The notes under the pieces are model-generated. The model was given only the letters and a program-made list of their open reading frames with translations, had not been told where the DNA came from and ran no database searches. The position numbers and the translations under genes were made by a program. This document shows positions 5,999 to 25,546 of a stretch of DNA of 25,546 nt, piece after piece (positions within the stretch are counted from its first letter, which is position 1; each line of letters starts with the position of its first letter). This DNA comes from a virus: positions 1 through 25,546 of the IMG/VR virus record IMGVR_UViG_3300044630_003256; one strand, written 5' to 3'.

Positions 5999-6895
5999 AT
6001 GACAACAACAATTACAATTAAAGACAAGGCAATAAATGCTACTTACCAAAATGTTACTGGCTTAACAGGTGGCGCAGGCGTTGACGCAACATTTGATGTT
6101 ACTAAGACAGACGGAGTATATTCTGTTGTGCTAGACAGCCTGGCAGCAAGTGCAGGCACAGGATACGTTGCAGGCGATACAATTACTCTTGCTGGCACAG
6201 CATTAGGTGGTACAGTGGCTAACAACTTGATCGTTACAGTAGCCACAGTTGGTACTGCTGGTAAGATTGCTACCTTTGGTGTAGTGGGTACAGGCCGTGC
6301 AGGTGATGGCACAGTAGATATTACTGTGGATGTTACAGGTACTACTGGCGTTGACACCTACACTATGGGTGGTGCTAGTACAGAGTTCACAACAACTAAA
6401 ACCGCTGACAATGTAAAGCTAGCCAGCACGTTAGTTAGCAACATGGAGTTTAATCTTGCTAACCACGAGCGTGTGGTGTTCACGGATAAGGCCATTGCCT
6501 ATGATGCCACAGGTCGTGCAGGTGATGTCTATGCCCTGTTAGCAGCCGCACTTGGTACTGCCGATGTTACTAACGCATACAAAGGCATTGGCATTGATCT
6601 AGCCGACAAAGGTTGGACAAACAAACAACTAGCAGAGGCATTACTATCTACAGATGTTTACAAAACAGATGCCGGTGGTGTCAGCAATGAAACATTCATC
6701 AAGCACGTTTACAAGAACGTTTATGGCACAGATGCTACATTGACACAGGTCACAGACTACACAGCTTGGATGACCAACAACAAGTTGAGTCAGGCTGATG
6801 TACTGGTTGCCGCTAGTGAGTTAGCAGCGTTTGAAACTACTATTGGTTTGGTGGGTTTGGCAACAACTGGTATTGAATATACTCCAGTAGTTTAA
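5999..6895 (+). CDS. DUF4214-like beta-rich surface or virion protein
   Basis: A 298-residue protein with an AAGGA ribosome-binding site. The N-terminal half (residues 1-140) is Gly/Thr/Val-rich and beta-like, with phrases such as SAGTGYVAGDTITLAG and GTGRAGDGTVDITVDVTG, a style found in phage structural proteins and bacterial adhesins. The C-terminal part (about 175-280) is helical and resembles the DUF4214 domain: TFIKHVYKNVYGTDA, then DYTAWMTNNKLSQADVLVAASELAAFE, matching 'fv..lY.nvlgR..d..g...W...l..g.ls...vl..f..s.Ef'. No signal peptide is seen, so it is more likely virion-associated, or exported by a type I route, than Sec-secreted. It stands as a single-gene unit between two terminators, suggesting strong independent expression. 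Confidence 0.65.
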   Translation: MTTTITIKDKAINATYQNVTGLTGGAGVDATFDVTKTDGVYSVVLDSLAASAGTGYVAGDTITLAGTALGGTVANNLIVTVATVGTAGKIATFGVVGTGRAGDGTVDITVDVTGTTGVDTYTMGGASTEFTTTKTADNVKLASTLVSNMEFNLANHERVVFTDKAIAYDATGRAGDVYALLAAALGTADVTNAYKGIGIDLADKGWTNKQLAEALLSTDVYKTDAGGVSNETFIKHVYKNVYGTDATLTQVTDYTAWMTNNKLSQADVLVAASELAAFETTIGLVGLATTGIEYTPVV

Positions 6896-11563: not shown

Positions 11564-12118
11564 ATGGAAAAGTTATTTAAATTTACAGCCTATTTAATGG
11601 GCTTGGTTGCAGTGGCCTTTTTGGTTCAAAATGTTACACAAACCAAAATGGAAAAGCTACGTGAGGGTCAGATGTTATCATCGCCCGATATAGTGTCAAT
11701 TAAAACGAGAGAACGACAACTAGAATGTCTAGCGATGAATATCTATCGCGAAGCAGGACACGAAAATTTTGAAGGCAAGGTAGCAGTAGCACAGGTCACG
11801 ATGAACAGGGCGGCTCATCCCTCGTTTCCAAAAGATGTCTGTGCAGTTGTTTTTCAAAAGTCAGTATTTGTAGACAAAGTTATTTGCCAATTCTCATGGT
11901 ACTGTGACACTGCCCACAAAGCTAGACCTGTTAACCAATCAGCTTACAATGAAAGTATGGCTGTGGCCAAAAAAGTATTGTTGGAAGGTTTTAGACTTGA
12001 CGTAATGAAAGAAGCCCTGTACTATCATGCAAACTATGTCAATCCACGTTGGCCTCTAGAAAAAATTGGATCAATCGGTAATCATATCTTTTACAAAGGA
12101 AAGAAAACAAATGGCTAA
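11564..12118 (+). CDS. SleB/Hydrolase_2-family cell-wall hydrolase, membrane anchored
   Basis: A 184-residue protein with a perfect AAAGGAGG ribosome-binding site. An N-terminal hydrophobic anchor (residues 8-25, TAYLMGLVAVAFLVQNV) is followed by a charged linker and the SleB-like domain: LECLAMNIYREAGHENFEGKVAVAQVTMNR, with catalytic Glu63 expected in YREAGHE, then HPSFPKDVCAVVFQK, CQFSWYCD, and ALYYHANYVNPRW. Enzymes of this family cut the glycan strands of peptidoglycan. In phages they may serve in host lysis or entry; the anchor suggests a signal-arrest endolysin or a periplasmic tethered hydrolase. The next gene begins within its last codons (ATGGCTAA). Upstream lies the structured RNA region. 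Confidence 0.88.
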   Translation: MEKLFKFTAYLMGLVAVAFLVQNVTQTKMEKLREGQMLSSPDIVSIKTRERQLECLAMNIYREAGHENFEGKVAVAQVTMNRAAHPSFPKDVCAVVFQKSVFVDKVICQFSWYCDTAHKARPVNQSAYNESMAVAKKVLLEGFRLDVMKEALYYHANYVNPRWPLEKIGSIGNHIFYKGKKTNG

Positions 12119-15264: not shown

Positions 15265-17166
15265 ATGTCTAAGATCATCGGTATTGACCTCGGCACCACA
15301 AATTCTTGCGTGGCTATCGTCGAAAATGGAATTCCCAAAGTTATTGAGAATTCAGAAGGTGCTAGAACTACACCCAGTGTGGTTGCCTACACCAACAATG
15401 AAATTCTAGTTGGTGCTAGCGCAAAACGCCAGGCAGTAACAAATCCCAAAAACACCATCTATGCTGCCAAGCGATTAATTGGTCGTAAATTCACTGAGGA
15501 TGCAGTTCAAAAGGACATCGACCTGATGCCTTATGAAATTATCCAAAACGGTAATGGTGATGCTTGGGTTAAGGCCGGAGAACAACGCCTTGCACCTCCG
15601 CAGATTTCAGCTGAAGTTCTGCGTAAAATGAAAAAGACAGCGGAGGATTATTTAGGACATGAAGTTACCCAAGCAGTTATCACAGTTCCTGCGTACTTTA
15701 ACGACAGCCAAAGACAAGCTACTAAGGATGCGGGACAGATCGCAGGCTTAGAGGTACTCCGTATTATCAATGAGCCTACTGCGGCAGCTCTTAGTTATGG
15801 CGTTGATAAGTCTGATAAAGCTGACAGGAAGATTGCTGTTTATGACCTCGGCGGCGGCACTTTCGACGTATCGATCATTGAGATCGCGAATGTGGAAGGC
15901 GACAAACAAATCGAAGTACTAAGCACCAACGGTGACACCTTTCTAGGTGGTGAAGATTTTGATCAACGCATTATGGAATTCCTTGTTGATGAATTCAAGA
16001 AAGATTCCGGAATCGATCTCAAGAAAGATATGCTTGCACTACAGCGTTTAAAAGATGCTGCTGAAAAAGCCAAGATTGAATTATCTAGTAGTGCTCAGAC
16101 AGAAGTCAATCTTCCATACGTTACGGCTGATGCAAGTGGTCCTAAACACCTAGTGGTTAAAATTAGTCGTGCTAAATTAGAAAATCTAGTTGCAGATCTA
16201 ATCGAACGTAGTCTAACACCTTGCCGCACTGCTATGAAAGATGCAGGCGTTACTGCCGCTGACATTGACGAAGTTATTCTAGTCGGCGGACAAACACGTA
16301 TGCCTAAAGTACAAGAAGCTGTTGAACAGTTGTTTGGTAAAGCACCACGTAAAGATGTCAACCCAGACGAAGCAGTTGCCGCAGGTGCTGCTATTCAAGG
16401 TGCAGTTCTAGGTGGTGATCGCAATGACGTTCTATTGTTAGATGTTACTCCCCTAAGTGTAGGCATCGAAACAATGGGTGGTATTATGACCAAGTTGGTT
16501 CAAAAGAACACAACTATTCCGACCAAGGCAAGTCAAACATTCTCAACAGCAGAAGACAATCAAGCTGCGGTTACGATCAAAGCCTACCAGGGAGAGCGTG
16601 AACTTGTACAATATAACAAGTTGTTGGGCGAGTTTAACCTAGAAGGTATTGCACCAGCACGTAGAGGACAGCCGCAGATTGAAGTAAGTTTTGACATCGA
16701 CGCCAATGGAATTATGCACGTCAGTGCCAAAGACAAAAACACCGGCAAAGAAAACAAAATCACTATTAAATCAGATAGTGGATTGAGCAAAGAAGAAATC
16801 GAGCGTATGGTTCAAGATGCTGAAGTTAATGCAGACGCAGATAAGAAACAACGAACATTAATCGAAACACGCAATGGTGCCGAAGCACAGATGCACGAAG
16901 TACGTAAAGATCTAGAAGAGTTCCGTTCAGAACTTTCTGAAACAGAAATCACTGAGTTAGAAACAGTGATCAAAGCAGTAGAAGAAGCTAACAAAGGCAC
17001 AGACCCTGAAAAGATCACTGAAGAACTCAACAAGGTTTATCCGGCAATGAAAACATTGTTGGATAAAAAACAGGCCAAAGAACAGGCAGCTCAGGCGCCT
17101 CAACCAGAAGCCAAAGCAGATGACAATGTGGTAGACGCTACGTTTACTGAAACCAAGTCTAGCTAA
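15265..17166 (+). CDS. dnaK: Full-length chaperone DnaK (Hsp70)
   Basis: A complete 633-residue Hsp70 with an AAGGAG site 7 nt upstream. ATP-binding signatures are in order: [14 protein letters not shown] (5-18), [44 protein letters not shown] and [11 protein letters not shown]. The linker [19 protein letters not shown] and the substrate-binding domain follow, then a helical lid and a tail ending NVVDATFTE, close to the DVVDAEFEE of bacterial DnaK. All parts needed for activity appear present. DnaJ and GrpE are not in the window, so host co-chaperones would be needed. Full-length DnaK is rare in phages, so transfer from a host is likely. Hsp20 and ClpS follow, suggesting a protein-quality-control group. 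Confidence 0.97.
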
Positions 17167-17173
17167 TTGTTAA

Positions 17174-17194
17174 AGGGGTACTTTCGAGGCCCCT
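17174..17194 (+). terminator. Probable terminator between dnaK and hsp20
   Basis: AGGGG-TA-CT-TTCG-AG-G-CCCCT hairpin followed by ATTGTTCTTAC. The T-tract is broken, so it may only partly terminate, leaving some co-expression of hsp20. Confidence 0.6.
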
Positions 17195-17222
17195 ATTGTT
17201 CTTACTTTATAAGGAGACTATT

Positions 17223-17660
17223 ATGAACAACAATCAACTATCGAGATTAGACACACTGAGCAGAGCACTTGTGGGATTTGACACAATGTTTGATCAAATG
17301 GAACGCAGATTTGCCAACCAAGTATCTAACAACTATCCTCCATTTAATATCCTTAAATGGAATGAAGACCAGTACGAAATTCAAATTGCAATTACTGGAT
17401 TTGAAAAAGAAGAAATTCGAGTAGAAGTTGAACGCAATCAATTGAGTGTGTTTGGCGAATCTAAAGAAATGTCTTTGGGAGATGCCATGTATCTTCACCG
17501 TGGACTTGCTACACGAGACTTTGAAAAAACGTTTACTCTAGCAGAACACATGGAAGTCAAGTTGGCCGAGATCAGAAACGGTATGTTGAGAATTCAACTT
17601 TTCCGTAACGTTCCGGAATCCGAAAAACCACGTATCATTGATATTGTGGAAATTAAGTAA
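17223..17660 (+). CDS. Small heat-shock protein Hsp20/IbpA family
   Basis: A 145-residue small heat-shock protein with an AAGGAG site; the ATG at 17223 is used, since an ATG at 17196 lacks a ribosome-binding site. The N-terminal arm (MNNNQLSRLDTLSRALVGFD) is IbpA-like, and the alpha-crystallin domain (residues about 40-130) shows PPFNILKWNEDQYEIQIAITGF, RVEVERNQLSVFGES, LATRDFEKTFTLAEHMEV and NGMLRIQLFRN. The tail has a short IDI motif for oligomer contacts. These proteins hold unfolding polypeptides for later refolding by DnaK, which is encoded directly upstream. Hsp20 genes are common in T4-like cyanophages. The identity is clear. Confidence 0.93.
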   Translation: MNNNQLSRLDTLSRALVGFDTMFDQMERRFANQVSNNYPPFNILKWNEDQYEIQIAITGFEKEEIRVEVERNQLSVFGESKEMSLGDAMYLHRGLATRDFEKTFTLAEHMEVKLAEIRNGMLRIQLFRNVPESEKPRIIDIVEIK

Positions 17661-17662
17661 TT

Positions 17663-17689
17663 AATTAGGGGAGCTCGTCTCTCCTAATT
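17663..17689 (+). terminator. Hairpin after hsp20
   Basis: AATTAGGGGAG - CTCGT - CTCTCCTAATT, 11 bp with one G-T pair, directly after the hsp20 stop. There is no clear T-tract behind it, so it may terminate weakly or protect the 3' end. The ribosome-binding site of clpS (GGAGC) follows immediately. Confidence 0.6.
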
Positions 17690-17705
17690 TGGAGCAAATA
17701 AAAAT

Positions 17706-18008
17706 ATGTCCACTGATTTAAAAATTGATGAAAAAATCACAGTTTCCTTACAGCCCCCAAAGCTATGGAAAGTTGTGTTGCTGAACGATGATAAAACTCC
17801 TATGGAGTTTGTGATCGAAGTGTTGACTGGTATATTCAAACACGCACAGGAACGAGCCAAAGACATTACCTTAGAAATACATAACACCGGTAGTGCGGTG
17901 GCAGGAATCTACACACACGAAATTGCCGAACAAAAAGGCATAGACTCTACTCAGGCTGCAAGACAAAATGGATTTCCTTTAGTGGTTACTATTGAACCAG
18001 ATGCATGA
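17706..18008 (+). CDS. clpS: ClpS, N-degron adaptor for ClpAP
   Basis: A 100-residue ClpS. The peptide-binding residues align with E. coli ClpS with a constant offset of seven: Asn27-Asp28 (N34, D35), Thr31 (T38), the gatekeeper Met33 (M40) and His59 (H66), within WKVVLLNDDKTPMEFVIEVL and EIHNTGSAVAGIYTHEIAE. The flexible N-terminal arm (residues 1-18) is present; it is needed to engage ClpA. ClpS delivers N-degron proteins to ClpAP and lowers ClpAP degradation of ssrA-tagged proteins. A phage that also carries tmRNA could thus shift proteolysis. No clpA is in the window. The stop overlaps the next start as ATGA. Confidence 0.94.
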   Translation: MSTDLKIDEKITVSLQPPKLWKVVLLNDDKTPMEFVIEVLTGIFKHAQERAKDITLEIHNTGSAVAGIYTHEIAEQKGIDSTQAARQNGFPLVVTIEPDA

Positions 18009-18285: not shown

Positions 18286-18831
18286 ATGAGCCTACGAGAA
18301 ATCACACACGATCTGCACGAAGAAGCAGAAAAAACAATCTTCGCAAAGAAATTGGTCAGCGGATCTTTTACCGCAGAAGAATATGCTAATTATCTTTGGC
18401 AAATGGTGCTGGTCTACAACGGTATTGAAACTGCCTGTAAAAGCCAAGGAATGCTAACCAATCTAAAAGATATTGAACGAACACACAAGATCTATCAAGA
18501 TTGTATAGAACTAGTTGGGCCGCACCATAGATTATTTTGGTTGCCGGTTACTATCGAGTACTATCAATATCTTCTAGAACTCAATATGAATCCCGAAAGA
18601 AAGCATTTGGTAAAAGCCCATATGTACTGTCGGCATATGGGGGACTTGTTCGGCGGACAGATCATTAAAAAGAAAGCACCAGGTCAGGGAAGATTCTATG
18701 ACTTTGACGATGCACATAATTTAAAAGCAGCTATCCGTGCTGAACTCACTGATGACCTAGGACCCGAAGCTCGAGTGGCCTTTGAATGGGCTATCAAGAT
18801 AATGAAGGCTCTAAACAATGAAGGTCGCTAA
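18286..18831 (+). CDS. Heme oxygenase
   Basis: A 181-residue biliverdin-producing heme oxygenase. The proximal heme ligand is His11 in ITHDLHEEAEKT, matching the 'LkeaTkevHtqaE' start of the family, and the distal-helix glycines are in HMGDLFGGQII (Gly119, Asp120, Gly123, Gly124), matching GDLSGGQ. The enzyme opens heme to biliverdin, CO and iron using reduced ferredoxin or a similar donor. A bilin reductase begins at its stop (TAATG overlap), so the product goes straight to the next step. Because of the terminator just upstream, a promoter between 18252 and 18286 is probably needed; no canonical one is visible. Such pairs occur in cyanophages, but this window shows no photosystem genes. Confidence 0.94.
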   Translation: MSLREITHDLHEEAEKTIFAKKLVSGSFTAEEYANYLWQMVLVYNGIETACKSQGMLTNLKDIERTHKIYQDCIELVGPHHRLFWLPVTIEYYQYLLELNMNPERKHLVKAHMYCRHMGDLFGGQIIKKKAPGQGRFYDFDDAHNLKAAIRAELTDDLGPEARVAFEWAIKIMKALNNEGR

Positions 18832-19511
18832 TGAGCCAAGTTTGGGACACACTTGTTGAGATCCAACATTTGTTGGAAAATAACTTCAGCCGCACGGGTC
18901 AAGAAGTTAATGAATCCGGAATGGAAAGATTTAATCAGCCAGGCTGGGTCAATCGCGTCTGGACTAGCGATCGTTATCGTCGTGCTCACATTGATGTTGT
19001 AGACGCTAGGGAAAGTAAAGGGCTATGGATGATGCACTGCTGTGTGTTTCCACATACACATAACCCTGCTCCTATTTTTGGCTTTGATGTAATAGCAGGT
19101 AAGAATAAGATTACCGGTTGTTTTATTGATTACAGTCCTACAGGAGATTTTGATCATCCAATGATTGAATATTTTGGTGAAGAAGTAGGTCGTTACGAAT
19201 GGAACAAAAAACGCAAGTTGCCAGAGTGGGCGGAACGCATTTTCAGCGAACATATGGTAGCTGCGGGCAATGTAAGCGATGAAAGTGAATTAAAACAACT
19301 TATAAGCCTAGCACATATTCTAGTTAATCACTATACAGAATGTGTAGGAGAAACTAACAATACCTCAGAAAGTACTAAAGATCAGCAGAATTACTATGCT
19401 CAAAACCAGAAACAAAACCCACATACACCTAAAGTAATGGTTAGTTTAGGTCTAAGCGAAGAAGATGTCCAAATGTTCATTCAGGACTGCCTTTTTCCTG
19501 AATTAAAATAA
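18831..19511 (+). CDS. Ferredoxin-dependent bilin reductase (PcyX/PcyA-like)
   Basis: A 226-residue protein of the ferredoxin-dependent bilin reductase family. The core reads GLWMMHCCVFPHTHNPAPIF then GFDVIAGKNKITGCFIDYSP. His69 and Asp86 are 17 residues apart, exactly the spacing of catalytic His88 and Asp105 in PcyA; the position of PcyA Glu76 is taken by Asp55 in RAHIDVV with a two-residue insertion. Length and context fit the phage type PcyX, reported from uncultured oceanic phages and shown to make phycoerythrobilin; PcyA would make phycocyanobilin. Which pigment forms here cannot be read from the sequence. Start and stop are coupled to heme oxygenase through TAATG. The C-terminal segment (about 175-226) is more divergent. 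Confidence 0.88.
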   Translation: MSQVWDTLVEIQHLLENNFSRTGQEVNESGMERFNQPGWVNRVWTSDRYRRAHIDVVDARESKGLWMMHCCVFPHTHNPAPIFGFDVIAGKNKITGCFIDYSPTGDFDHPMIEYFGEEVGRYEWNKKRKLPEWAERIFSEHMVAAGNVSDESELKQLISLAHILVNHYTECVGETNNTSESTKDQQNYYAQNQKQNPHTPKVMVSLGLSEEDVQMFIQDCLFPELK

Positions 19512-19534: not shown

Positions 19535-19903
19535 ATGGAAATTCTTGTACTTTTACTATTGTTCCAAATCAAGCACTGGTATGCTGATTTTAAAATTCAA
19601 ACCTATATGCAGACTGTTAAAAAGGGTGTATGGTTAGATCCTGTTGGCATTAGTCATACACTAGACCATGTCTGGGGAACATTAGTATTATTATTGATTT
19701 TTAGTTTCTTTCATCCCATTAGTGCTATTACAATAATAGCGGTAGCAGTTATTGAAGGTGTATACCACTATGTAATAGATTACACCAAGGTAAAATATGG
19801 TTGTAAAGACAATACCAAACCCCTGTTTTGGAATCAATTTGGCCTAGACCAACTAGCGCATCAAACATCTTACTTGGTCATTGCGGCTGTCATCTGTCTT
19901 TAG
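19535..19903 (+). CDS. DUF3307-like membrane protein (122 aa)
   Basis: A 122-residue membrane protein. It opens MEILVLLLLFQIKHWYADFKIQTYMQ, where the 'KHW.aDf.lQ' phrase is typical of DUF3307 proteins; helices follow at about 45-63 (VWGTLVLLLIFSFFHPI) and 66-86 (AITIIAVAVIEGVYHYVID). It then has DYTKVKYG and FWNQFGLDQLAHQTSYLVIAAV, where 'DQ..H' is the other conserved patch. Family members are small inner-membrane proteins of unknown role. Transcription appears to begin at the start codon from a TATAAATA box, which would make the mRNA leaderless. It precedes the curli-like locus and may belong with it or be separate. Confidence 0.68.
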   Translation: MEILVLLLLFQIKHWYADFKIQTYMQTVKKGVWLDPVGISHTLDHVWGTLVLLLIFSFFHPISAITIIAVAVIEGVYHYVIDYTKVKYGCKDNTKPLFWNQFGLDQLAHQTSYLVIAAVICL

Positions 19904-19930: not shown

Positions 19931-19957
19931 TTCCGGTAAATACACTACGTAACCGGG
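19931..19957 (+). promoter_or_regulatory. Leader hairpin before csgF
   Basis: TTCCGGT (19931-19937) can pair with ACCGGGA (19952-19958; one G-T pair) across a 14-nt loop. It abuts the GGGAG ribosome-binding site of csgF, so it could modulate translation. The CCGGTAAATAC part also occurs at 12477-12487, upstream of another gene; both lie in short leaders. Confidence 0.35.
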
Positions 19958-19966
19958 AGCGAACCG

Positions 19967-20446
19967 ATGAAAAAAATCTTAGTAATACTAAGTCTATGCG
20001 TGTCTGCGACAGCATCGCAGGCCGAACTAGTCCATCAATTTAAAAATCCAGCATTCAGTGGCATTGGATTTAGCAGTCACGTCTTAACAATCGACAGCAT
20101 TGAAAAGAGCCGTCGTGACGCTATCGAAGCAGACAAAAAAGCAGTCATTGCCAAAGCAGAAGCAGAACTACTAAACACACCGTTGAATAGATTTATGAGT
20201 CTATTCCAAAGTCAGGTATATGCTCAACTTGCAACACAGTTAAGCAATAACCTATTCACAAACAAATGTTCAGCCGCAGATGGCACAGCAATTCCAGGTT
20301 GTGTGAATCCAACAACGGGTAATTTTGTCCTTGACGGCAACACTGTTACCTGGGCCAAGGCCAATGACAAGGTCACGCTGACAGTGGTAGATGCCAAAGG
20401 AACTGTAACCACTGTGATAGTTCCAATTGCTAGTTTTAGTTTTTAA
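19967..20446 (+). CDS. csgF: CsgF, curli assembly partner of CsgG
   Basis: A 159-residue exported protein. A signal peptide (MKKILVILSLCVSATASQA) is followed by ELVHQFKNPAFSGIGFSSHVL, which parallels the start of mature E. coli CsgF (FQFRNPNFGG), the part that plugs into the CsgG pore and narrows it. Downstream, LFQSQVYAQLATQLSNNLF matches the CsgF helix and a C-terminal strand region follows (TVTWAKANDKVTLTVVDAKG). E. coli CsgF is 138 residues; this one has a longer middle (DSIEKSRRDAIEADKKAVIA) and a pair of cysteines (KCSAADGTAIPGC). It is the first gene of the csgF-csgG-curlin-FecR run, with a GGGAG site. In curli, CsgF couples secretion to nucleation at the cell surface. Confidence 0.85.
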   Translation: MKKILVILSLCVSATASQAELVHQFKNPAFSGIGFSSHVLTIDSIEKSRRDAIEADKKAVIAKAEAELLNTPLNRFMSLFQSQVYAQLATQLSNNLFTNKCSAADGTAIPGCVNPTTGNFVLDGNTVTWAKANDKVTLTVVDAKGTVTTVIVPIASFSF

Positions 20447-20455
20447 GGAGAAAAT

Positions 20456-21394
20456 ATGAAAGCAATCAAACTATCCTTAATCACACTAGCCGTAGTAGCC
20501 CTAGCGGGTTGCTCAACTGTACGTCCTTGGGGCAGCACACAGATCAAAGAAGAAGCTAAAGTTAGTGAAACAATCAATAAAAGTTTTACAGCAGTTCCGG
20601 CGCCAGCAGGTCCAGCAGTCACAGTAGCAGTATATGGATTTAAAGATCTAACAGGACAGCGTAAGCCTAGCTCAACACTCAGCTTGTTCAGTACAGCAGT
20701 TACACAGGGTGCTGAAGCATACCTGATGAAGAGTCTACAAGAAGTTGGCAATCGTCAATGGTTCACAGTGGTTGAGCGTGTTGGCCTTGACAACTTGTTG
20801 AAAGAGCGTCAGATGATCAAACAGACACGTGAGATCTATGAAGGTGCCAATGCTAAACCTTTACCTCCACTACAGATGGCAGGTGTTATTCTAGAAGGTG
20901 GCATCATTGATTATAACTCAAATACCTTAACGGGCGGCACAGGCGCACGTTGGTTGGGTATTGGAACATCTACAGCCTACACTCAAGACGTAGTAGTTAT
21001 TAGCCTACGTTTGGTGAGTGTTCAAACTGGCGAAGTCCTAACTACTGTAACAGTAGAAAAGAACTTGCTCAGCACCGCCGATGGCGCCACTGCGTTGAAG
21101 TTTTTCAACCAGGCAACCCAGGCATTTGAATTTGATTCAAGCCAGACATTTAACGAGCCAGGTAACTATGCCCTACGTTCAGCAATCGAAACAGCAGTTA
21201 TTGAGTTAATCAAGAAAGGCGAACGTAATGGTTTATGGCAATTCAAGGAGAAGTCCAATGAGTTGGTTCAAACACAAACCAAGACTAAAGACGCAGCCAA
21301 AGCTGCACCCACACCACAGCAGTCCGATAGCGGAAAAGGTGCTGAAGGAAGCAAAGAAAAAAGTATCTGGGGAAGAATCCAGTTCTGGAAATAA
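20456..21394 (+). CDS. csgG: CsgG, outer-membrane curli secretion pore
   Basis: A 312-residue lipoprotein. The lipobox LAGC places Cys19 at the mature N-terminus. The CsgG fold is clear: PAVTVAVYGFKDLTGQRKPS, FSTAVTQGAEAYLMKSLQE, WFTVVERVGLDNLLKERQMI, AGVILEGGIIDYNSNT, GGTGARWLGIG and LRLVSVQTGEVLTTVTVEK, each matching its E. coli counterpart. It forms a nonameric barrel exporting unfolded curlin. At the constriction, Phe78 equals E. coli Phe56, but the equivalents of Tyr51 and Asn55 read Ser/Thr and Leu, with one extra residue. The C-terminus has about 35 added polar residues (KTKDAAKAAPTPQQSDSGKG). An AAGGAG site overlaps the csgF stop, so the two are made together. Confidence 0.93.
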   Translation: MKAIKLSLITLAVVALAGCSTVRPWGSTQIKEEAKVSETINKSFTAVPAPAGPAVTVAVYGFKDLTGQRKPSSTLSLFSTAVTQGAEAYLMKSLQEVGNRQWFTVVERVGLDNLLKERQMIKQTREIYEGANAKPLPPLQMAGVILEGGIIDYNSNTLTGGTGARWLGIGTSTAYTQDVVVISLRLVSVQTGEVLTTVTVEKNLLSTADGATALKFFNQATQAFEFDSSQTFNEPGNYALRSAIETAVIELIKKGERNGLWQFKEKSNELVQTQTKTKDAAKAAPTPQQSDSGKGAEGSKEKSIWGRIQFWK

Positions 21395-21427
21395 TAACAA
21401 CATTGGCACTAAGCCAGGAGAAATATA

Positions 21428-22216
21428 ATGAAACAAGTACTACTAATATTAGCATTACTAACAGCGTTCCCAGCAATGTCACAGACAGCAGTCACAGCCC
21501 CAAGTGCGCCTGTGATTCCAAACATGGTCACAGTTAGCCCCAACGCAACTGCTGCATTAGCTATTGCCACAACCAATCGTATCTTCATTGATCAAAGTGG
21601 TGACAATCCCAATGTCAACATGACACAAGATGGTACTGGTAATGCTGCCGGAAGTGGCGGCCGTCCTATATACCTACGCGGTATCGATCAAATCATTGTT
21701 ACTCGTCAGATAGGTGTTAGTAATGACATCAGTCTAGAAGCAGTTAATGATACAACAGGCACCGGCAAAGGTGTTAATATCACTATTCAACAGATTGGCG
21801 ACAGCAATCGAGTTGACGCTGCCTGCGGATATGGCACAGCTTCAACAGGTGGTACAGCCCTAACAGGTTGTAATGCCGCTGACTTCAATTGGAAGTTCAC
21901 TGGCGACAGCAACGACTTTCAATTCCGTGGTACCGGCGATGACCTAAAGAGCGCAGTTGATGTATCAGGTGACAGCAATATATTCCGTGTTGACGCAATT
22001 GGTGACAAACACAGTCAAACTATCAAAGTAGCAGGCGATACCAATACATTTGATATCAACCAACGCTCAACAGGTGCTACTGGATCTAGCGTCTGGATAG
22101 ACCTTACAGGCAACAGCAATACTTTTACCATAAGTCAAACTGGTACTATTGACAATGTTGTTAATATCAAGAGTGTGTCCAACAGCGGCATGTTCAATAT
22201 AACGCAAAAAAATTAA
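21428..22216 (+). CDS. Secreted curlin-repeat protein (CsgA/CsgB-like candidate)
   Basis: A 262-residue exported protein with a signal peptide (MKQVLLILALLTAFPAMSQ) and an AGGAG site. From residue about 50 it consists of strand-turn units built around Gly-Asp/Asn-Ser-Asn and Gln/Gly ladders: IFIDQSGDNPNVNMTQDG, VNITIQQIGDSNRVD, FKFTGDSNDFQF, VDVSGDSNIFRVDAIG, IKVAGDTNTFDINQ, IDLTGNSNTFTISQTG and VNIKSVSNSGMFNITQ. The roughly 20-residue period with 'Q.G..N' is like curlin repeats that stack into an amyloid beta-solenoid, though many glutamines are replaced. A Cys pair near residues 137-152 interrupts the ladder. The neighbouring CsgG/CsgF would export it. Whether it is a major (CsgA-like) or nucleator (CsgB-like) subunit cannot be told. 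Confidence 0.75.
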   Translation: MKQVLLILALLTAFPAMSQTAVTAPSAPVIPNMVTVSPNATAALAIATTNRIFIDQSGDNPNVNMTQDGTGNAAGSGGRPIYLRGIDQIIVTRQIGVSNDISLEAVNDTTGTGKGVNITIQQIGDSNRVDAACGYGTASTGGTALTGCNAADFNWKFTGDSNDFQFRGTGDDLKSAVDVSGDSNIFRVDAIGDKHSQTIKVAGDTNTFDINQRSTGATGSSVWIDLTGNSNTFTISQTGTIDNVVNIKSVSNSGMFNITQKN

Positions 22217-22225
22217 GGGGGCGAC

Positions 22226-23398
22226 ATGAGAGTTGCTGCTCTTATAGTGGGCTTGATGATAGCCAGTTCAGCTTGGGCGGATATTGGATCCGTTACAGAA
22301 GCCACTGGCACCGCTATCATCAAACGTGGTAAGGACACAATTCAAATCGTCAAAGGCACTGAAATCAAGACCAACGACAAGATTGAAACCAAGAATGGAA
22401 AAGTCAAAATCGTTTTTAAAGATGATACAAATGTTACTGTTACTGAGTCGAGTAGTCTTGTTATTGACGATTTCGTATATGATCCTAAAAGCGGGTCAGG
22501 CCGGCTAGGACTCAAAGCAGCCGCTGGCACAGTGCGTTATGTGTCAGGTAGTATAGCCAAAGATCCAAAGAATGTAAAAATTAACACACCCACAGCAGCC
22601 ATTGCTGTTCGTGGCACTGACTTTGTGATGGCTGTTAGCGAAACAGGTGGCAGTATGATCATGTTGATGCCTACTTGTGAAATAGAACAAAATGTAAACC
22701 TAAAAGGTCTAACCTGTGGCAGTGGTGCTATTGATGTAGAAACACCTGCAGGCATAGTCAAGCTAACTCGCCCTTATCAAGCTACCTTAGTTGAAACACT
22801 AAATGGAATTCCTAGTCCTGCTGTTATAGTTGCTCTTAATGGCATGGCCATTGGCAACAACCTAATGGTTAACCCTCCAAGAACAACTACAGGTATGAAT
22901 GTAATTGCTGCCGCTCGTGCAGCCGCAGTGGCCACTGGCGATGCTAAGAAAGGTGATAACAAAGACAAGAAAGACGAAAAAGACGATAAGGACGATGCTC
23001 GAGAAGAACAACAAAATACTGCCAAAGAAGGTGGTAGTGCTCGCGCATCCAAGCAGGGCCGCAGTGCCAATGAGGGCGATGAAGATCCTGAGAATAGAAC
23101 TAAAGTTGGCTTAGACACTAAAGAATCAAATAAAGATGCATTGGCCAATGAAGTAGCCGCAGTCAGTGAAACTGAAAATCCCTATGTTAAAAAATTATGG
23201 AAAGACAAGAGCGAAACACAGCAGGTTGGTTGGCAGTATGAAAGTCTAAGCCCTAACAGTCGCAACTATGCTAATGTGGTAATGCCGATAGATACCAAAG
23301 TGCAGGTAATTGTAACGCAGGATATGCAGACCAACAGTTGGAACTTTAGCAGTGGTAAAGCAGTGGGGCAGATTGTTATCAATCAGAATTTTAGATAA
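22226..23398 (+). CDS. Exported FecR-domain protein
   Basis: A 390-residue protein with a signal peptide (MRVAALIVGLMIASSAWA) and a GGGGG-type ribosome-binding site. The FecR domain spans about residues 25-135: GTAIIKRGKDTIQIVKGTEI, NDKIETKNGKVKIVFKDDTN, LVIDDFVYDPKSG, then GTVRYVSGSIAK and INTPTAAIAVRGTDFV, the classic FecR order. Residues about 235-265 are an extreme Lys/Asp run (KKGDNKDKKDEKDDKDD), followed by a low-complexity linker and a C-terminal part (KVQVIVTQDMQTNSWNFSSG). FecR domains outside siderophore systems appear in surface or periplasmic assemblies. It sits between the curlin-repeat gene and the large curlin-like adhesin, so it may organise or anchor these fibres. This role is inference. 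Confidence 0.82.
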   Translation: MRVAALIVGLMIASSAWADIGSVTEATGTAIIKRGKDTIQIVKGTEIKTNDKIETKNGKVKIVFKDDTNVTVTESSSLVIDDFVYDPKSGSGRLGLKAAAGTVRYVSGSIAKDPKNVKINTPTAAIAVRGTDFVMAVSETGGSMIMLMPTCEIEQNVNLKGLTCGSGAIDVETPAGIVKLTRPYQATLVETLNGIPSPAVIVALNGMAIGNNLMVNPPRTTTGMNVIAAARAAAVATGDAKKGDNKDKKDEKDDKDDAREEQQNTAKEGGSARASKQGRSANEGDEDPENRTKVGLDTKESNKDALANEVAAVSETENPYVKKLWKDKSETQQVGWQYESLSPNSRNYANVVMPIDTKVQVIVTQDMQTNSWNFSSGKAVGQIVINQNFR

Positions 23399-23402
23399 TG
23401 TT

Positions 23403-23489
23403 ATGAATCAAGAACAAATTTATGAATTGGTTTGTGGTGCGTTAATAGTAGTAGCACTAATCGGGTTTGCCTTTTACTTTATTTTATAA
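23403..23489 (+). CDS. Very small single-span membrane peptide (28 aa)
   Basis: An ATG at 23403 begins 4 nt after the FecR-gene stop and the stop at 23487-23489 lies 1 nt before the next ATG. The product MNQEQIYELVCGALIVVALI-GFAFYFIL is a short polar start and one transmembrane helix (residues about 9-28), with no tail. Exact fit between two genes favours a real gene. Possible roles include a small regulator of membrane assembly or a lysis-related peptide; none can be shown. Confidence 0.5.
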   Translation: MNQEQIYELVCGALIVVALIGFAFYFIL

Positions 23490-23490
23490 G

Positions 23491-25546
23491 ATGAAAAAGA
23501 TATTTTTATTGTTATTGTTAGTATGTTCAAATGCTTTTGGACAGGTAGGGTTTGAAACAGGCAACTTAAATGGCTGGACTACTTCTGGCAGTGATGCTAC
23601 TGCCAGTCAATCAGTGGTAAACCTTTGTACAGGTGGTGGCAAATGTTGGACCATCAATCCCTATGGCTCTTGGATGGGTAAATTGTATCCGACAAGTGTT
23701 GTTCAATTCAATGCTGCTACAACAAGTCTGGGTTTAACTTCTGTAGAAAATAATGCTATTAGACAGTTTATGACGGCAAATGCCGGCGGCGGCAATCCGA
23801 CACCAACTGATGCAAGTTGGATGAAAAGGTCAATAACACTAACAGCAGGAACAACATATTCTTTTGCCTGGAACTATGTAAGCACAGACTATACTCCGTT
23901 CAATGACGGATCTATGGTCACTTTGGTTCACTCCACAAATGCCAGTATTACTCCTACTCTGAACAACAGTCAACAGCGTTACGGCTTGTTGGGATTTACC
24001 AATCCGGGTACAGGTAACTATGCCACTGACAGTTATGGATCAACTGGATGGCAAAAGGTTGTATTCACTGTTCCCCAAACAGGTGACTATGTATTAGGCT
24101 TTGCCACATTTAACCTAGGTGACACAGCACTGAGTCCTATACTGTTTGTTGATGAGATACAAGGTACAACATTATTAAACGGTACATCATTTGCCCCTAT
24201 TGCTCCTAACCCTGGATCAACTGCTCCTTCTGCTACCACTCCGACACCGACAGCACCCAACTGGCAGACTATCAAAACAAACAGTACTCCTGTTGTAATC
24301 AGCAACATCTATCCTACCAGCAACAACAGTCCCAGCAATGAAGGTGCCGCCAATGCCTTTGACGGTAATCCTAACACCAAGTACCTAAACTTTGATAAAC
24401 AAAACGCAGGTGTTACTGTTAAATTAAACCAAGGACGTGTGGTGAAGAAATTTACAATTACCACTGCCAATGATGCGGTTGAACGTGATCCTGCCAGTTA
24501 TAAACTATACGGATCAAACGATGGTGTCAATTGGGTTTTGCTATCAGAAGGACCATTAAGTTTGTCTAACAATAGATTTGCTGTCAGCGATGAAATTGCT
24601 GTGGCTAATACCAATGCCTATGTTTATTATTTTATAAAGTTTCCTAGTATTAAAAATGACAGTGGCAACAGCGTACAGGTCTCCGAAGTAACCTATTACT
24701 ATGATCTAGATGACGGTGTAACCAGCACCGATTCAGGCACAGGCGGTACACCTAGTAATCCAGGCCAAGCAGGCAGTGTCTGTGCTGACTGTGCTCCGAG
24801 TTGGCCAGCAACCAGCGATATATCAATAGCACAAACTGCACAGCGTAATTCGGCCAAGACTCGTGTGGCCAACATAGTTCTAGGCAATCATTTATATCTT
24901 GAACAGAAGATTGGCAGCAGTGGTAATGCAGTAACTATAGAACAAACTGGCAACTACAACAAAATAGCAGGACTAGGTGGTGACACTTATGCTGTCATAG
25001 ACGGGGACAACAACACGGTCAACATCAAGCAAGGTGACACACTGGGCAAGAACTTGATTGAGTTTAGTGTTACGGGCAACACAAATAACATTACACTATG
25101 GCAGGCTCGTAATCCCACAACTGGCTTACAAGACGGACAAGAAAGTGGTGGACACTATATGGGCCTAAACATAAATGGCAGCACCAACACACTGAGCCTA
25201 AAACAAAGCAATGACGGCGGCACCACAAGCGGACACTTTGCCTATGTTGATGTCACTGGTAATAACAATCAGGGAACGCTAAAGCAAATGGCTAATGGTG
25301 AGAAAACATTCTTTGGCATTGTCAATGGTAATACCAATGTGTTCGACGTTACCCAACAGGGTTCAGGCAGTTATTTTGATTTGGCACTAACTGGCAACGG
25401 ACACTCAGTAACAGCCAACCAAAAAGATGCAGGCAGTCACAAAGCCACAGTCAACTTGACCAATAATGGTGGTGCTAGCACAGTTACTCTAATTCAACAG
25501 GGTAGCACAGCGCAGAATATCAATATTACACAACAGTGTGCTACAT
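23491..25546 (+). CDS. Large secreted protein: discoidin-like domain plus curlin-like repeats (3' end outside window)
   Basis: The frame is open for 685 codons from ATG 23491 to the window edge. After a signal peptide (MKKIFLLLLLVCSNAFGQ) comes an N-terminal domain of about 215 residues beginning GFETGNLNGWTTSGS, similar in style to bacterial exported beta-sandwiches. A Pro/Thr linker (about 240-260) leads to a discoidin/F5-F8-type-C-like domain (about 270-410): NEGAANAFDGNPNTKYLNF, VVKKFTITTANDA, YKLYGSNDGVNWVLL and QVSEVTYYYD. Then, from about residue 440, curlin-like units (VTIEQTGNYNK, VNIKQGDT, VTGNTNNITLWQ, INGSTNTLSLKQ, VTGNNNQGTLKQ, LTGNGHSVTANQ) run to the end. Discoidin domains often bind carbohydrate, so this could be an adhesive fibre tip. 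It is expected to be a CsgG substrate. Confidence 0.78.
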   Translation, partial: MKKIFLLLLLVCSNAFGQVGFETGNLNGWTTSGSDATASQSVVNLCTGGGKCWTINPYGSWMGKLYPTSVVQFNAATTSLGLTSVENNAIRQFMTANAGGGNPTPTDASWMKRSITLTAGTTYSFAWNYVSTDYTPFNDGSMVTLVHSTNASITPTLNNSQQRYGLLGFTNPGTGNYATDSYGSTGWQKVVFTVPQTGDYVLGFATFNLGDTALSPILFVDEIQGTTLLNGTSFAPIAPNPGSTAPSATTPTPTAPNWQTIKTNSTPVVISNIYPTSNNSPSNEGAANAFDGNPNTKYLNFDKQNAGVTVKLNQGRVVKKFTITTANDAVERDPASYKLYGSNDGVNWVLLSEGPLSLSNNRFAVSDEIAVANTNAYVYYFIKFPSIKNDSGNSVQVSEVTYYYDLDDGVTSTDSGTGGTPSNPGQAGSVCADCAPSWPATSDISIAQTAQRNSAKTRVANIVLGNHLYLEQKIGSSGNAVTIEQTGNYNKIAGLGGDTYAVIDGDNNTVNIKQGDTLGKNLIEFSVTGNTNNITLWQARNPTTGLQDGQESGGHYMGLNINGSTNTLSLKQSNDGGTTSGHFAYVDVTGNNNQGTLKQMANGEKTFFGIVNGNTNVFDVTQQGSGSYFDLALTGNGHSVTANQKDAGSHKATVNLTNNGGASTVTLIQQGSTAQNINITQQCAT

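Follow-up and report, generated by a model that had tools for sequence, protein, structure and literature searches.

The virus record IMGVR_UViG_3300044630_003256 of the IMG/VR database, 25,546 nucleotides in length and analysed here as a whole (the window), carries at positions 19967-25546 five genes in one direction, which encode CsgF, CsgG, a curlin-repeat protein (curlin 1), a FecR-domain protein and a fusion of an F5/8C domain with a curlin domain (curlin 2). Judging from the sequence, this locus probably represents a phage-run type VIII secretion unit, which would coat infected cells with curli bearing variable modules of glycan-binding type; the fibres would presumably be displayed on the infected cell. 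The components that characterise type VIII secretion, namely a CsgG pore with a lipobox, an adjacent CsgF and an exported substrate with curlin repeats, were all found. What distinguishes the locus is the exchange of N-terminal modules of curlin 2 over a conserved pore and a conserved fibre domain.

The identities of the genes are nearly certain, being backed by Pfam and NCBIfam and, for CsgG, by solved structures as well. All five are located on the plus strand. The first gene, csgF (19967-20446), encodes a cap or chaperone of the CsgG pore (159 amino acids, with a signal peptide; PF10614, 7.7e-13). It is followed by csgG (20456-21394), encoding the outer-membrane lipoprotein pore of type VIII secretion (312 amino acids; PF03783, 2.8e-51), which matched the solved CsgG of Escherichia coli at 9.7e-46 and of which the lipobox Cys19 is invariant in 21 phage sequences. 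Next come curlin 1 (21428-22216; 262 amino acids), the probable fibre body, and the FecR-domain protein (22226-23398; 390 amino acids; PF04773, 5.5e-10), ending in GQIVINQ. Curlin 2 most likely starts at the ATG at 23488 and its frame is still open at the window end (25546). Export signals, as read from the sequence, open all five products. The initial annotation had named these protein types in one direction, and profile searches recovered every one of them; its count of six genes has to be lowered to five, as the preceding gene (19535-19903) encodes a DUF3307 protein and is not a curli gene according to Pfam.

A scan of IMG/VR for CsgG returned 58 loci, a few of them near-duplicates or opposite ends of the same record. 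The curli gene block recurs in more than 40 further viral contigs, drawn from many metagenomes, and most of the 58 loci share the window order of chaperone, bilin and curli genes. The phage origin assumed in the initial annotation is thus borne out by dozens of contigs. A chimera of phage and bacterial DNA, which the same annotation had considered, is extremely improbable, because this neighbourhood recurs in those contigs with phage genes on both sides; no support for a chimera was found. Among the loci with enough sequence, CsgF adjoins csgG in 56 of 56, and curlin 1 (53/53), FecR (48/48) and the second curlin (41/41) are kept without exception.

Curlin 1 matches the Pfam model Curlin_rpt (PF07012, 4.5e-5, above the curated cut-off), and its profile matches the solved curlins 8c50 (9.5e-9) and 8enq (0.0017), as well as CsgB and CsgA models. 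The N, Q and G curlin positions are invariant in 33 curlin 1 sequences, the identity of which falls to 26%. The protein is modelled as a beta-solenoid (predicted local distance difference test, pLDDT, 80). The structural neighbours of this model are many beta-helix proteins, including phage tailspikes, and for this reason the fold alone cannot prove curlin 1 to be a curlin; solved curlins were not among the neighbours listed, although the list is no test of absence. The tailspikes, together with a weak PHROG tail-protein match of the F5/8C module (6.8e-6), would agree with both repeat proteins being tail or fibre proteins of the virion that merely resemble curlins. This is very unlikely in view of the profile matches of curlin 1 to solved curlins and CsgB/CsgA models, the signal peptides of both curlins and their constant position beside csgG. 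Moreover, L089 is a bacterial operon composed of the same parts, and the curlin 2 modules M1, M2 and F5/8C occur once per record and in curlin 2 only (17 phage records, many of them fragments).

In curlin 2 the signal peptide is followed by M2 (approximately 23545-24228), the F5/8C or CBM32-like module (approximately 24250-24762; PF00754, 3e-10) and a C-terminal curlin domain from approximately 24859. The curlin-like repeats that the initial annotation had seen in this discoidin fusion find support in its homologues: the C-terminal part of the window copy falls short of the Pfam curlin model, but 17 of 40 homologues reach it (best 7.6e-15), and this part holds six copies of the motif Nx(hydrophobic)x(hydrophobic)x(Q/N), against 0.8 in shuffled sequences (0 of 5000 shuffles). 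The nearest homologue, of 697 amino acids, is encoded in locus L014. The predicted structure, of moderate overall confidence (pLDDT 68), combines a CBM32-like domain with a C-terminal beta-solenoid; the former aligns with galactose-binding CBM32 domains with Z of about 12 over 124-130 residues (root-mean-square deviation 2.4-2.8).

The fusion in the window proved to be one of many swappable architectures. Among 40 curlin 2 proteins, a conserved C-terminal curlin domain stands behind exchangeable N-terminal modules in 15 architectures (the linker-like profile X29 was pooled with the curlin domain, and two of the proteins are truncated at contig ends). Profiles distinguish M1, M2, F5/8C, PA14, a weakly CBM4/9-like module and others. 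A true PA14 module is present in curlin 2 of L052 and of the pelagiphage HTVC008M, where the second curlin is annotated as hypothetical. The module of L038 type, although also considered as PA14, does not match that family in Pfam and shows at most a weak resemblance to CBM4/9. For M1 and M2, named phages gave no protein match; M2 resembles the exported family NF038132 below the cut-off (6e-9). Five module profiles gave no matches to curlins of 17 Caulobacterales loci, the large curlins of which carry repeats at both ends.

The modules move independently of the genomic backbone, as follows from two comparisons. Between the window and L005, DnaK is 98% identical (synonymous divergence, dS, 0.35), CsgG 96% and the curlin domain 90%, whereas the first module of curlin 2 is unrelated and F5/8C is only 71% identical with saturated dS. 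Conversely, M2 of the window and of L014 shows 94% identity and a dS of 0.56, whereas the dS of DnaK is 2.05. The varied module set suggests selection for binding varied surfaces. Modules of glycan-binding type could equally bind the envelope of the producing cell, in which case the fibres would shield the infected cell against superinfection or grazing and the modules would only anchor the coat to its own polysaccharide. This was proposed in part for pelagiphages (PMC9599517) and is rather unlikely here, although nothing decisive speaks against it, as self-binding and binding to other cells are inseparable by sequence.

CsgE (PF10627) was not found in 13 records, some of which may be incomplete, the window phage itself being a fragment, while the E. 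coli control was positive; this agrees with its absence from the initial annotation. Since CsgE is the periplasmic gate, the pore may stay open, and CsgG with CsgF could primarily serve as a pore, open or gated, for nutrient uptake or for depolarisation and the timing of lysis, with the curlins secondary or acting as plugs. Such pore-first proposals exist for the phage Melnitz (PMC9004378) and for pelagimyophages (PMC7029224), and a cell-wall hydrolase gene at 11564-12118 of the window would be in line with a role in lysis. However, both curlins are kept in every locus with enough sequence and are under purifying selection (the ratio of nonsynonymous to synonymous divergence is about 0.04-0.15 for the pore, the curlins and FecR wherever computable), and a pure pore leaves the swappable surface modules of curlin 2 unexplained, so this function seems unlikely to be the primary one. 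That modules are exchanged while the pore and the fibre domain stay conserved speaks for surface binding rather than for a mere pore, and the claim of the initial annotation that a phage carries the pore together with candidate substrates is supported by the retention of curlins with csgG.

The FecR protein may be physically tied to curli. Of 54 distinct FecR sequences, 53 end in a curlin-like strand (2.6 expected from shuffles), and in 48 a second such strand lies 14-30 residues ahead of the terminal one (0.4 expected), although the shuffles ignore common ancestry and these figures overstate independence. The terminal strand persists in divergent phages as well as in the Caulobacteraceae operon. 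In bacterial FecR-domain proteins strand-like ends occurred in 2 of 13 frames, one of them from a curli operon, but some frames look mispicked and the control is weak. In the window the sequence stops within curlin 2; 28 of 32 relatives with enough sequence carry an adenylate cyclase with CHASE2 and class III catalytic domains, which in L014, for example, comes immediately after curlin 2. It can be tentatively proposed that the locus is a phage-programmed, fast-evolving curli adhesin with swappable receptor-binding-like modules, in which FecR and the cyclase sense curlin export through the FecR strand. After the cyclase, two small predicted membrane proteins of no Pfam family recur on the opposite strand in most relatives read (in L014 on the minus strand, 18924-19271 and 20458-20733); they may be holin-like or other proteins.

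Expression of the locus may start from a single promoter. A TAAATA box at 19937-19942, on the plus strand about 30 bases upstream of csgF, is a candidate T4-late-like promoter element. Of 57 loci, 51 have the box in the 70 bases that precede csgF (5.8 expected), and it was not found before csgG (0/57), FecR (0/54) or curlin 2 (0/44), which suggests one transcription unit. No TAAATA directly precedes the major capsid gene in the two relatives checked, scans with promoter and terminator consensus sequences gave chance-level results, and the exact TATAAATA is not enriched within the window.

During infection, perhaps late if TAAATA is a late promoter, the cell would build the CsgG pore in the outer membrane and cap it with CsgF. 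By homology, both exported curlins would pass through this pore, curlin 1 forming the beta-solenoid body of the fibre and curlin 2 entering it via the C-terminal curlin domain and exposing its N-terminal modules, several of which are of glycan-binding type. FecR, with its curlin-like end, is likely to touch curlin either at the pore or in the periplasm, and might cap or nucleate curlin or report its export to the cyclase. The most plausible benefit would be that infected cells stay attached to particles or to neighbouring cells, which would bring progeny into contact with hosts, or that they are shielded from rival phages. Several observations weigh against this scheme: no CsgE, an enhancer of secretion in E. 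coli, was found in the 13 records searched; the neighbours of the curlin 1 model include tailspikes; sequence searches with M1 and M2 gave no solved relative; the deep relatives L057 and L058 lack a curlin directly after FecR; four loci have no detected cyclase nearby; and Melnitz, which carries the same operon, gave no clumping in OM43 cultures (PMC9004378).

The longest relatives, of 250-383 kb, are jumbo T4-like phages, and extension of the flanks through them revealed phage structural genes (terminase and capsid) on the longest records. From these relatives, the phage of the window is presumably also a jumbo phage. Judged by its terminase, the 383-kb record comes closest to Pseudomonas PA5oct-like phages (56%), ahead of Sinorhizobium phage Phosso (50%) and GAP32/CBB-like jumbo phages (43%). 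This record of 383,411 bases (L041, L042) carries csgG at both ends, alike but non-identical; its circularity is not established, as the end sequences lack an exact overlap, and the two ends may come from two strains. The window DNA has no near match among named phages, while L005-L007, from different metagenomes, match most of its upstream proteins at 94-99%. The DnaK of the window is 66-73% identical to that of Burkholderiales (77% in one partial match), slightly above other groups tried, which gives a weak hint of a betaproteobacterial host.

Other genes of the window encode a ribonucleotide reductase, a PAAR protein and an exonuclease. DnaK (633 amino acids), Hsp20 and ClpS are encoded consecutively (15265-18008), and most relatives retain them immediately before the bilin and curli genes. 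Heme oxygenase and then a ferredoxin-dependent bilin reductase are encoded at 18286-19511; relatives carry at this place one of at least two types of reductase, with identities of about 40-44% or 68-94%. HemO and PcyX/PcyA have been described in phages before (PMC11480375), but in that work a link to curli neighbours was not seen. A repeat-rich DUF4214 protein (5999-6895) is 92% identical in L002 (19090-19986); its gene appears mobile because it lies downstream of the curli genes in L002 and upstream of them in the window. Curli loci in Planctomycete, Bacteroidota, Synechococcus and Pelagibacter metagenome-assembled genomes (L086, L087, L091, L093-L099, L105) resemble misbinned phage contigs; in L086 the order is Hsp20-ClpS-heme oxygenase-bilin reductase-csgF-csgG.

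In the CsgG tree the window lineage forms its own clade (support 100/100) inside a wider one (99/97), which takes in Melnitz, HTVC008M and a metagenome-assembled curli operon of Caulobacteraceae (L089/L090). The deeper branching order, and hence the donor, is unsure because several branches are long. FecR and the cyclase recur within the wider clade and cannot be regarded as general parts of Caulobacterales curli, as neither was recognised next to csgG in 17 other Caulobacterales loci read, which lie outside it. Membership in the holdfast anchor system HfaABD was rejected, since the HfaB model is far weaker on the window protein (29.9 bits, cut-off 300) than the CsgG model (172.7 bits, also below its cut-off of 505).

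Since 2020, the presence of curli genes in phages has stood unexplained in the literature. The novelty implied by the initial annotation does not hold for the locus as such: csgF-csgG have been reported for pelagimyophages (PMC7029224), Melnitz, with a proposed role in lysis (PMC9004378), and podo- and myo-type pelagiphages, together with curlin, FecR, a second curlin and the cyclase, aggregation, superinfection defence and uptake being discussed (PMC9599517). The discoidin-curlin fusion is not discussed in those papers. In the open-access literature searched, which gives no proof of novelty, occurrence in jumbo phages, modularity and exchange of curlin 2 and the FecR terminal strand were not found; these, with the jumbo-phage CsgG clade and TAAATA before csgF, are apparently new. 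The module set consists of concrete domains, and the range of the curli operon is widened from marine pelagiphages to large T4-like phages.

The pelagiphage module (HTVC008M, Melnitz) shares with the window the order csgF-csgG-curlin-FecR-curlin; the cyclase that comes next in it also follows in relatives of the window, and no CsgE was found. The window lineage differs in being jumbo T4-like, in its separate CsgG clade (40-43% CsgG identity) and in other and more varied curlin 2 modules; unlike in the podovirus version, DUF3307 rather than a histidine kinase stands before csgF in the window. With the curli of Enterobacteria (csgBAC/csgDEFG) it shares the CsgG pore, CsgF and curlin repeats, whereas the phage operon adds FecR, the cyclase and adhesin-type modules on one curlin; CsgE was not found by profile, and CsgC and CsgD were outside the profile search. 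The Caulobacteraceae operon, in a bacterial setting, has the order csgF-csgG-curlin-curlin-FecR-CHASE2 cyclase, a CsgG about 44% identical and the same curlin-like end of FecR, but both its curlins (223 and 247 amino acids) precede FecR and lack added modules. In its way of working, curlin 2 resembles phage tail-fibre tips, in which terminal binding modules are swapped over a conserved shaft; unlike these, it is exported and encoded beside a secretion pore, and nothing here marks it as a virion gene.

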